Part shown: in pieces, positions 40,632-44,141 of the stretch
Numbering within the stretch: the stretch's first letter is position 1
Layout: each line of letters begins with the position of its first letter
Assembly: GCF_000147875.1 (NCBI RefSeq)
Contig: NC_014507.1
Span: 1,240,001 to 1,304,000, forward strand
Direction: 5' to 3'
Source of the DNA: Methanolacinia petrolearia DSM 11571
GTDB taxonomy: Archaea > Halobacteriota > Methanomicrobia > Methanomicrobiales > Methanomicrobiaceae
Length of the DNA: 64,000 bases
Translations under genes and position numbers: made by a program
The notes under the pieces: model-generated
What the model was told of the DNA's origin: nothing
Database searches by the model: none
Seen by the model: the letters and a program-made list of their open reading frames with translations, nothing else

Positions 40632-41528
40632 TCAGGATTCCAGGAATTTCTTCGGAACGTAGATATCTATTGTATAGGATTTGAGCATATTCGGGTTGAT
40701 TATGAAGTAGTAATTACCCGAACCTTCATAGAATTTATGAACCCATTTATATTCATTTACATTCTCACGTGTGAGTGTGTCGATCTCGTCATCGTCTTCA
40801 TCTGTATTATCTTCGTCGTCCTGTCCCGGGAAATAATCCTTGGTTGCAGATCCCTCGGCTTTGTCAATCTCAATCGGAACCGGACCTTCAGTGAGAGTAT
40901 TAAGGATATATATCGGCCCTTCGGGATTATCGGCATTCATTACCTGAATGTTTACCCATGGCATTATAAAGTGCATCTGGGATACTTCTGCACCAAGGCT
41001 TTCACCTTCGCTGGCTACAAGCCCTTCCACTCCGTCACCGTCATCATCTGAATCTTCATCTTCGTTGCTAAATCCGACATCTCCTATTCCCTCTATCCTT
41101 GCATCGATCTCCCAGAGGGGGAAAGGTATACTGATAATCTGTGTGGTGGCGTCCCATTGTCCGTTTATTGTCGCGTAGAGAACCATCTCATTCGATTCAG
41201 GTTCCGTATATGCCGGGATTGCGTAGCCAAAATCTTTTAATGAACCCTCCCATTCGATATTATATGTGGACGGATCTACAAACTGAACATTATAAGCCGT
41301 ACCGTCCCATGATGGTGTAGGAGTTGCGGTTGTCTCCATTATTACAGAAGGAGTGTACGGATTATCTGATGATCCTTCGGGAACGGGGATCTTTGAAGGA
41401 AGCGATATTGTGCCTGATCCCTGCTCGGGAAGTACAGGCTCCCCGTTCATTATAGGTTTGATGACAAAAGCCAGAATTAATACTATCAGAATGGCTGCGA
41501 TAAATACTACCAGATCCTGCTTTTGCAT
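40632..41528 (-). CDS. Membrane-anchored acidic extracellular protein, unknown
   Basis: The protein has 298 residues. One N-terminal membrane helix (about 6-26, VFIAAILIVLILAFVI) anchors an extracellular chain. There is a Pro-rich stretch around 40-70 (including TTATPTPSW), a beta-rich middle and two Asp/Glu-rich runs (near 160 EDEDSDDDGD and near 240 DEDDDEID) that could bind calcium. The final segment FYEGSGNYYFIINPNMLKSY looks like a beta sandwich edge. No family was recognised. It is monocistronic and faces the nrdD gene in the same direction. Confidence 0.7.
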   Translation of the reverse strand: MQKQDLVVFIAAILIVLILAFVIKPIMNGEPVLPEQGSGTISLPSKIPVPEGSSDNPYTPSVIMETTATPTPSWDGTAYNVQFVDPSTYNIEWEGSLKDFGYAIPAYTEPESNEMVLYATINGQWDATTQIISIPFPLWEIDARIEGIGDVGFSNEDEDSDDDGDGVEGLVASEGESLGAEVSQMHFIMPWVNIQVMNADNPEGPIYILNTLTEGPVPIEIDKAEGSATKDYFPGQDDEDNTDEDDDEIDTLTRENVNEYKWVHKFYEGSGNYYFIINPNMLKSYTIDIYVPKKFLES

Positions 41529-41666: not shown

Positions 41667-43868
41667 TCAGACTCTTGCTCCGGTATCGTAGGGAGAAAGA
41701 GCCGATTCTGGTGTTTTTTCGGCTTTATATTCTTTGAACTGTTTGAGAGCGACCGTAAGATCCCTTGTAAATGCAAAATATCCGATCTGGGTGTTTCTGC
41801 ACAGGTTCATCGCCATATCCATGAGCCCACGCGGGTCCGGCCTCGCTTCCCCGAGCCAGATGTGGAAAATGTTTCCCCCGTCTACGATCGGGAAGAACAC
41901 ATGCTCGATCTCTATCCTTTTTGTAAGAGGAACGTCTGCTCCGGGAGTTACATGCGTTCCGTTCGTATAGTATATGGGCAGGTCGAATGTGGTTCCCAGT
42001 TGTTCGAGGGCTGTATCGAGATCTCCTTTCGTGACCTTCTCCGCGTATTCACGAAAACGGCTGTCGAGAAGATCGGCGACGCTGAATCTCTGTCCTGTCG
42101 TTTCCGCAGGGGTCCTTGCAAGGGCGATCGTCATATTATGCTTTCCCGAGAGCTCCTTTGCATACATCTCAAGCTCCGTCATCGTTCTGACTGCAAGCCT
42201 GAACGCTTCCTTGCTCTCGTGAAGCTGTGATCCTATGTGATGCTGGATCATCTCGTTTACGCCTACGACACCGATGGTATTGACCAGTCCGTCGAGATCT
42301 ACTGCAACCGGGCCTCTCTCTTCTCCTTCCGGATCATTCGGATCTTTCGGGCGCTGCATTGCAAACGGCATTCTGCCTTTCGACCTGATACTGTTGATCC
42401 ATCTCCTTTTTATCTTGAAGACCTCGGTCGCTATATCCATCAGCTTTTTAAGTTCGGCAAAGAGTCTCTGGTCATCTCCTTCCGCCTTGTAAGCCGCCCT
42501 GGGACAGTTTATGGATACTACCTGAAGGGAGCCCATTGAAAAATGGAGTCCGTCTTTGAAATACATCTTGTCCTCAAAAAGATCGTCCTGATCGGCGATC
42601 GACGAGAACTGATATGCACAGCACTGGTAACATGAGATTCCTTCCCCGGCTCCCCTGTAAGCCGGGATCTGGTTGTCGTAATATGGTGTTCCGTATTTTG
42701 AGGCGAGTTCGAATGTCATGAGATACAGGTCGTGGTAGGTCGGGAGATCGGGATTTTGTGAGTTGAACTCCTCGTCTTCTTCCATGAAATCCGGTTCTAT
42801 GCTGATCTCGGGTTTCGGGAAGTTGAACGGTTTCCCCCAGAAGTCTCCTTCGTACATGACGTCCATAAGGGCCTTGAAAAGGAGCCTGACTTCTCTTTCG
42901 AACTCGGAATATGTCCTGTGGGGCGCCTGAACACCGTCCCATACCTTGCCCTTGTAGACGCACGGTTTGTCTTTCCAGAGAGTAGGGACCCCGGGACTGA
43001 GCTGAACGGACGAGAAGACCACCTGTCCTCCTCTTGCAACCATCATCTGCGTCATCTCGTAGACGAACATCTGCATGTGCTGTTTTATGCCTTCATAGTC
43101 CATTCCCTCGAAGTACGGCGCGATGAAAGTCAGGAAATTATAGTACCCCTGCCCGCCTGCGAAGTTTGTCTGTGCGCTTCCAAGAGCTTTTACCGCATGT
43201 AGAATCGCAACTTCCGGGCGCTTTGCCGGGCCGGCTACCGAGGCTTTAGTCCCGTTTCCGTCAGGCATCAGGCCGTAATAGAAGAAGTATCTAAGGTCCC
43301 AGTCCTGGCAGAATGGCCTTGTCCCGAAATATTCAAGGTCGTGGATATGAAGGTCGCCTGAAAGATGGAAATCCGCGAGATCCGGGGGGAGCTGGAGCAG
43401 GTACTGCTCCTTGCTGATCTTATCGGCCTTCTTTTTATGGGAGGTTTCGGCGTTTTCCTGGAGATTCGCGTTGTCATGTGATTCGAATCCGCTGCCCACG
43501 TCAATAAGATGTGCATCGAAGACCGGAGTTCCTACCCTTGTACAGACGTTCCTGTACTGGTACAGCTCCCTTTCCAGGAGGGTGGTGTTCATGATCTCCC
43601 TGATCAGCGGTCCGCTTAAAAATTTCAGTCCGAGCTTCTGTATTTTTATCTCCACACTCTGTGCAATCTCACGTGCGAGATCTTCTGTTGCAGCACTTCC
43701 GCCGTAGAACTCCTCGACAAGTTTGGATTCTTTGATAAGCTGCTGGACGATCCTTTCCCGGTCCCAGTCAAGAATCAGCCCGCGTGAAGTTCTTACTTTT
43801 GGAAGCGACGGTACTGTAAATCCGTCAAGTGTGCGCTGAAGGGATTTTTTCTGCTGGTCCCCGCTCAT
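41667..43868 (-). CDS. nrdD: Class III ribonucleotide reductase homologue lacking the glycyl-radical segment
   Basis: The 733-residue protein aligns by eye with anaerobic NrdD: an N-terminal ATP-cone-like region (about 10-100), DLHIHDLEYFGTRPFCQDW, PAYRGAGEGISCYQCCAYQF with candidate active-site cysteines, VSINCPRAAYK and VNTIGVVGVNEM. Canonical NrdD ends with a four-cysteine zinc site and an RVCGY-type glycyl-radical loop after YFAFT. Here YFAFTRDLTVALKQF runs straight to a stop after DTGARV, and neither feature is present. No activase gene (nrdG) is nearby. A glutaredoxin gene lies three bases upstream. It may be a non-canonical reductase or have lost activity. Confidence 0.85.
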   Translation of the reverse strand: MSGDQQKKSLQRTLDGFTVPSLPKVRTSRGLILDWDRERIVQQLIKESKLVEEFYGGSAATEDLAREIAQSVEIKIQKLGLKFLSGPLIREIMNTTLLERELYQYRNVCTRVGTPVFDAHLIDVGSGFESHDNANLQENAETSHKKKADKISKEQYLLQLPPDLADFHLSGDLHIHDLEYFGTRPFCQDWDLRYFFYYGLMPDGNGTKASVAGPAKRPEVAILHAVKALGSAQTNFAGGQGYYNFLTFIAPYFEGMDYEGIKQHMQMFVYEMTQMMVARGGQVVFSSVQLSPGVPTLWKDKPCVYKGKVWDGVQAPHRTYSEFEREVRLLFKALMDVMYEGDFWGKPFNFPKPEISIEPDFMEEDEEFNSQNPDLPTYHDLYLMTFELASKYGTPYYDNQIPAYRGAGEGISCYQCCAYQFSSIADQDDLFEDKMYFKDGLHFSMGSLQVVSINCPRAAYKAEGDDQRLFAELKKLMDIATEVFKIKRRWINSIRSKGRMPFAMQRPKDPNDPEGEERGPVAVDLDGLVNTIGVVGVNEMIQHHIGSQLHESKEAFRLAVRTMTELEMYAKELSGKHNMTIALARTPAETTGQRFSVADLLDSRFREYAEKVTKGDLDTALEQLGTTFDLPIYYTNGTHVTPGADVPLTKRIEIEHVFFPIVDGGNIFHIWLGEARPDPRGLMDMAMNLCRNTQIGYFAFTRDLTVALKQFKEYKAEKTPESALSPYDTGARV

Positions 43869-43871
43869 CCT

Positions 43872-44141
43872 TTACTCTCCCTTGCACAGAGGAAGTATTT
43901 TCTCTTCGTCGACTGCTCCGCTTTTAAATAGATCCCCGGAAGTCATAAACGTCTCATCAACCTGAAGTACGGGAGCCTCCCTTACAAAGACGTTATTCAG
44001 CCGGAGTTCAGTCATATTTTCCGGAAGCGACAGGTCGAGCTCTGTGTATTCAAAACCGTTTGATTTCAGAAATCTCTTTAAAAGTTCACAGTTTGGACAT
44101 ACTTCAAGTGAATATACGTTTATTTTCGGATTGTCAGACAC
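43872..44141 (-). CDS. Glutaredoxin-like protein (NrdH type)
   Basis: The 89-residue thioredoxin-fold protein has an N-terminal redox pair CPNC (about 14-17) and the cis-Pro segment EAPVLQVDE. Size and sequence fit glutaredoxin/NrdH redoxins that reduce ribonucleotide reductases. Its stop lies three bases before the start of nrdD, so it is the likely electron donor of that enzyme. Class III reductases of the NrdD2 type use such redoxins instead of formate. Confidence 0.88.
   Translation of the reverse strand: MSDNPKINVYSLEVCPNCELLKRFLKSNGFEYTELDLSLPENMTELRLNNVFVREAPVLQVDETFMTSGDLFKSGAVDEEKILPLCKGE

Follow-up and report, generated by a model that had tools for sequence, protein, structure and literature searches.

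Class III ribonucleotide reductase (RNR), whose catalytic subunit is NrdD, is described as a single chain bearing its own radical glycine. The NrdD3 type is marked by a QCCR/A finger loop (PMC9669993), and the reductant listed for it is a glutaredoxin-like NrdH (PMC9176816). In P. copri NrdD, an NxN flap covers the active site, and largely rigid-body motion is expected of the glycyl-radical domain (GRD) that it carries in cis (PMC11226230). Spare-part glycyl-radical proteins have been validated for pyruvate formate-lyase (PFL) only, and others are speculation (PMC8683613). Here, we analyze a 64-kb stretch (the window; C1:1240001-1304000) of the closed 2,843,290-bp chromosome of Methanolacinia petrolearia that contains an NrdD barrel gene without a radical domain. 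With a probability of about 0.88, we read this barrel as the catalytic part of a class III RNR of the NrdD3 type made up of two polypeptides, in which the glycyl radical would be supplied in trans by a separate small protein, NrdD-GRD, and an NrdH-like redoxin would act as reductant. Our literature search, which reached few subscription papers, found no description of a split class III RNR, and an earlier mention is possible. The three genes at issue are as follows, with window positions where no contig is given.

41667..43868, minus strand: nrdD barrel gene, 733 amino acids (aa); class III RNR catalytic subunit, NrdD3 type, without C-terminal zinc site and glycyl-radical loop
C1:165172-165534, minus strand: NrdD-GRD gene, 120 aa; PF13597 positions 506-562, 52.7 bits
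C1:1705283-1706071: NrdG2-type activase gene; TIGR02495 at 160.8 bits, over the cut-off; radical S-adenosylmethionine (SAM) domain

In a profile search of the window proteins, the barrel matched PF13597 over positions 1-511 of 562 (447 bits) and TIGR02487 over positions 2-530 of 581, and its C-terminus reads ...FTRDLTVALKQF...DTGARV, with a short tail after the last profile-matched position. Its predicted model, which is of low confidence (predicted local distance difference test, pLDDT, 61), matches class III RNR structures in Foldseek with a best E value of 2.3e-15; this match and the profile score agree with a ten-stranded NrdD barrel. Because the barrel lacks two elements that a single-chain NrdD carries in cis, the zinc site and the glycyl-radical loop, we file it as a variant of class III RNR and not as canonical NrdD. 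An earlier reading of the DNA letters (the sequence-only reading) had described a class III barrel ending at DTGARV without either element and had held that no frameshift hides the lost domain; both claims stand, since PF13597 stops at 511 and no zinc-site or Gly-loop remnant occurs in any frame 3′ of the barrel stop. The rest of the window likewise showed no Gly loop of the NrdD type. The same reading had called the DNA beyond the stop AT-rich and non-coding, and this is correct for ~140 bp, beyond which a 298-aa open reading frame (ORF; 40632-41528) begins on the same strand. The AT-rich, non-coding DNA immediately 3′ might suggest that the truncation is a frameshift, an assembly error, or a recent pseudogene, but the truncation point is identical order-wide in many independently sequenced genomes, no remnant lies downstream, and the ratio of nonsynonymous to synonymous substitution (dN/dS) is low, so we reject this explanation, whose chance we regard as negligible.

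PF13597 matches in the whole M. petrolearia genome fall in two places only, the barrel (positions 1-512) and the 120-aa ORF of NrdD-GRD (positions 506-562), which lies 1.1 Mb away on the same chromosome. NrdD-GRD consists of an extra N-terminal zinc ribbon followed by an NrdD-type zinc site and radical loop: the motifs CHTC...CPNC, CPLDHCGC, and CPLCG...CPECG precede SRVTGYLADVAGWNQGKQQELKDRSRY, which holds the RVTGY radical loop with Gly95. The ribbon bears a weak likeness to Spt4 (E = 0.1), and the core of the protein is 64% identical to fused NrdD3 versus 48% to the other NrdD type. The nrdG2 gene occupies a third locus, apart from both the barrel and NrdD-GRD, so that the description “without activase” in the sequence-only reading applies to the gene surroundings and fails for the genome. 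That reading had left two alternatives, that another protein supplies the radical or that the family uses different chemistry. The first fits the separate 120-aa GRD gene and NrdG2; the second is not needed because the genome has both, and NrdH is a known class of NrdD3 reductant (PMC9176816).

The genome gave no match to a PFL-type glycyl-radical enzyme (PF01228), which rules out another such enzyme as the partner of NrdD-GRD. NrdD-GRD itself matches PF13597 and not PF01228, the family of the PFL spare part YfiD/GrcA, and the genome holds no fused NrdD that could serve as a full-length partner with its own radical domain. By motif search, the GRD gene (L003:6271-8725 and homologous loci) is found between pyrF (58/63) and the corrinoid salvage gene cbiZ (51/63). 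That cbiZ often adjoins the GRD gene would suit a barrel using some other radical source, for example adenosylcobalamin (AdoCbl) or direct SAM chemistry, but the barrel keeps its class III residues, and an NrdD-type GRD and NrdG2 are present in the genome and track the distribution of the barrel; we give this possibility very little credence.

If the barrel and NrdD-GRD form one enzyme, NrdG2 and SAM would install the radical on Gly95 of NrdD-GRD, which would dock on the barrel at the site that the cis domain occupies in other NrdDs. The glycyl radical would then take a hydrogen from a finger-loop cysteine, the nucleoside triphosphate would be reduced, and the resulting disulfide would be re-reduced by the adjacent NrdH-like redoxin. 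A separate docking GRD would be in keeping with the rigid-body cis GRD of P. copri NrdD.

The distribution of the pieces was surveyed across 232 genomes from the class, every one of them reported as belonging to one order (Methanomicrobiales). The best NrdD match across these genomes scored 455 bits and ended at 510-516. For fused NrdD3 of related lineages, the score is about 530 bits over positions 1-562, which would have topped the ranking, and no such protein was among the matches in the 232 genomes, which bears out conservation of the truncated form, a point that the sequence-only reading had put up for checking. NrdD-GRD is present in about 190 of the genomes (203 listed, from which 12 with E values over 1e-5, almost all of them from genus g17, are subtracted), almost always on a short ORF by itself, in genera that include Methanomicrobium, Methanogenium, Methanoculleus, Methanoregula, Methanolinea, and Methanospirillum; 59 aligned copies are 66-93% identical to that of M. 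petrolearia over its length. NrdG2 was found in 25 of 26 members tested outside g17, the lone exception being a fragmented metagenome-assembled genome. In g17 (family f3), which is probably Methanocorpusculum, the barrel, a real GRD, and NrdG2 are missing from 25/25 genomes, and NrdJ is retained in all 9 genomes tested. The sequences show that the pieces exist, how they are built, that they are conserved, and that they are distributed jointly.

Some members of the order show further arrangements. One Methanomicrobiales genome with the split form (G119) also has another fused NrdD-like ORF, which is divergent and 569 aa long (L259; G119:C1:590703-592373). Many barrels of the class are carried on ORFs of 1200-1300 aa, and at L117, L118, and L119, large intein-like insertions (ending ...HNC) split the nrdD barrel exactly at the C187-equivalent cysteine. 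Such insertions in nrdD of relatives raise the idea of a post-translational joining of the two pieces, for example by split-intein trans-splicing, but inspection finds no intein-like flanks, the barrel tail being about 27 variable residues and the GRD starting with its own helix and zinc ribbon, so this seems highly improbable.

Two class II NrdJ-type genes (PF02867) are also present in the M. petrolearia genome, at L169:3827-5536 and L170:3269-5542, one encoding 758 aa with a TSCPD domain and the other 570 aa without it. In G285 (L097/L171), a GRD gene with a divergent C-terminus immediately precedes a class II NrdJ-like gene. The two PF02867 genes, the ability of g17 genomes to live with NrdJ alone, and the stand-alone GRDs in addition to fused NrdD in some genomes of family f8 are what one might cite for a different account, in which all deoxynucleoside triphosphates (dNTPs) come from NrdJ, the barrel is an inactive or moonlighting remnant, and the GRD is a YfiD/GrcA-like spare part or a regulatory radical store. 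We consider this account unlikely. Methanomicrobiales have no intact NrdD3 for a spare part to repair; a remnant is hard to reconcile with barrel catalytic residues and strong purifying selection kept across the sampled families; and genome G014 (99% complete, a single draft) encodes the barrel, GRD, and NrdG2 but gave no NrdJ match at E<=1e-20, so that the split enzyme may be its sole RNR.

The residues of the barrel also fit a two-polypeptide NrdD3 enzyme. The features that we compared are as follows.

43557..43868, minus strand: N-terminal region, residues 1-104; ATP-cone-like sequence, judged by eye
43464..43472, minus strand: NxN motif N133-A134-N135; both Asn residues invariant in 44 split barrels
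43308..43310, minus strand: Cys187 (RPFCQDWD); invariant in split barrels and common to fused NrdD
42618..42635, minus strand: finger loop SCYQCC, residues 412-417; invariant, with the QCCA motif
41670..41750, minus strand: variable tail, residues 707-733; at the position of the zinc site and GRD in fused enzymes

The finger loop has the NrdD3 form, with QCCA and without the Met/Glu of NrdD1/NrdD2, and SCYQCCAYQ is invariant. Cys187 is the presumed active-site cysteine, and we infer that N133-A134-N135 is the counterpart of the P. copri flap. No ATP-cone Pfam match was obtained in residues 1-104, and the predicted model is mainly helical in this region from residue 37 on. Six barrel cysteines are invariant (C187, C413, C416, C417, C455, and C690). 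Among 11 fused NrdD3 sequences, 350 positions are invariant; 24 of these lie in the GRD region, which is absent from the barrel, and 287 of the other 326 are retained. With a dN/dS of about 0.02-0.1 for both pieces, the barrel and the GRD appear functional and under strong purifying selection. These values and the invariant cysteines agree with the sequence-only reading that the gene is not dead. It had also proposed that a canonical NrdD/NrdG or NrdJ elsewhere together with substituted active-site cysteines would suggest loss of function; class II NrdJ genes are indeed present, but the active-site cysteines do not vary, so loss is not indicated. Across the 42 genomes that have both the barrel and the GRD, mean identity is 80% for the barrel and 76% for the GRD, and the barrel and GRD distances are correlated (Mantel r = 0.82, 0/2000 permutations).

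Several points weigh against a two-polypeptide enzyme. The Mantel correlation mostly reflects species phylogeny, that is, shared descent, and is no proof of contact, and the joint absence in g17 may go back to a single event confined to that genus. The barrel, NrdD-GRD, and nrdG2 genes are mutually unlinked, and dNTPs could come from the class II NrdJ that these cells also have. The AlphaFold model of NrdD-GRD is moderate (pLDDT 72), with no PDB match below E 0.001. From sequence, finally, we infer docking, radical transfer in trans, the order of events, the role of the redoxin, and the joint activity of the pieces.

The proposed reductant is encoded immediately beside the barrel.

43872..44141, minus strand: glutaredoxin-like gene, 89 aa with CPNC, 3 bp upstream of nrdD; PF00462 above the cut-off

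A similar redoxin is found upstream of the barrel in 47 of 50 homologous loci, so that the pairing of the barrel with a glutaredoxin, which had been recognized in the sequence-only reading, holds well beyond this genome. The protein scores under the cut-off of TIGR02194 (NrdH), and it is the probable NrdH-type reductant of the barrel.

As for the origin of the split, the barrel shares 64-69% identity with the fused NrdD of related archaea, and the junction can be compared directly: fused NrdD3 reads FTRDMTVC...C..C...SRITGY, versus FTRDLTV[A/S]LKQF and a variable tail in split barrels, where the position of the first zinc Cys is Ala or Ser in most cases. Split barrels of family f2 retain this Cys (TVCLKQF), which, to judge by the sequence, is a trace of a fused ancestor. 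Shortly before the junction, residue 690 is Cys in 50/50 split barrels versus Ala in 11/11 fused NrdD3. In the f8 relatives, which have fused NrdD, nrdG2 lies directly downstream of nrdD in several cases. Some f8 genomes and G331 have a stand-alone NrdD3-type GRD alongside a complete fused NrdD (loci L091-L095, L256, L257, and L258 in G280, G268, G260, G317, and G331), and these GRDs are possible class III RNR spare parts. A GRD tree of viral, solo, and fused forms, built from few columns, does not resolve the deep forks and is compatible both with an origin from a cis domain and with an older stand-alone GRD.

GRDs also occur on ten IMG/VR contigs, of which seven carry stand-alone GRDs (L262-L268) and three carry fused NrdD (L269-L271). 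The seven stand-alone GRDs have the zinc ribbon and are 41-69% identical, and several have terminase or other phage proteins as neighbors; L267 and L268 appear to represent one virus, and the L262 GRD clusters with those of G119/G120 in the GRD tree. No NrdD barrel was detected anywhere on the L262-L268 records, four of which are 31-50 kb and none of which is rated complete, so they may be fragments. In G218 (L252-L254), three extra GRD copies adjoin a repeated primase-like ORF and are probably proviral or plasmid copies. Viruses with only a GRD would make sense if the GRD acts in trans on a host barrel. We suggest tentatively, at somewhat less than even odds, that the GRD is an exchangeable subunit: obligate in trans in Methanomicrobiales, loaded by viral GRD-only genes onto the host barrel to boost or redirect dNTP supply, and present beside fused NrdD as spare parts that are possible precursors of the split. 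If so, the GRD-only genes would be a case of a host enzyme that receives one of its subunits from viruses.

A two-protein form found order-wide would offer a natural experiment in which radical installation, docking, and catalysis are separable and can be mixed in vitro. Two questions would become testable, namely the movement of the GRD between activase and barrel and the existence of spare-part glycyl-radical proteins for enzymes other than PFL. For annotation, split genes of this kind can pass for a truncated NrdD and a small zinc-ribbon protein.

Among known systems, the NrdD3 RNR of the Methanosarcina barkeri type is alike in barrel sequence (the 64-69% identity to fused NrdD of related archaea given above), QCCA loop, NrdH-like redoxin neighbor, NrdG2, and GRD motif, but here a second protein, encoded far from the barrel and extended by an N-terminal zinc ribbon, carries the GRD and zinc site, and nrdG2 is outside the operon. 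YfiD/GrcA and T4 Y06I, the PFL spare parts, likewise are stand-alone glycyl-radical domains presumed to complete a barrel in trans. They repair an O2-damaged PFL-side enzyme, whereas the barrel studied here lacks a built-in radical domain and the GRD, which is of the NrdD family and has a zinc site, would be an obligate subunit. Pseudomonas NrdJa/NrdJb also divides an RNR catalytic chain into two polypeptides, with a zinc finger in the C-terminal piece (PMC9669993), but it is a class II enzyme with an AdoCbl radical, and its separated piece has no glycyl radical. Eukaryotic NrdDG fusions are a further rearrangement of class III RNR architecture (PMC3019208), in the opposite direction: there the activase is fused to NrdD, whereas here the GRD is split off.
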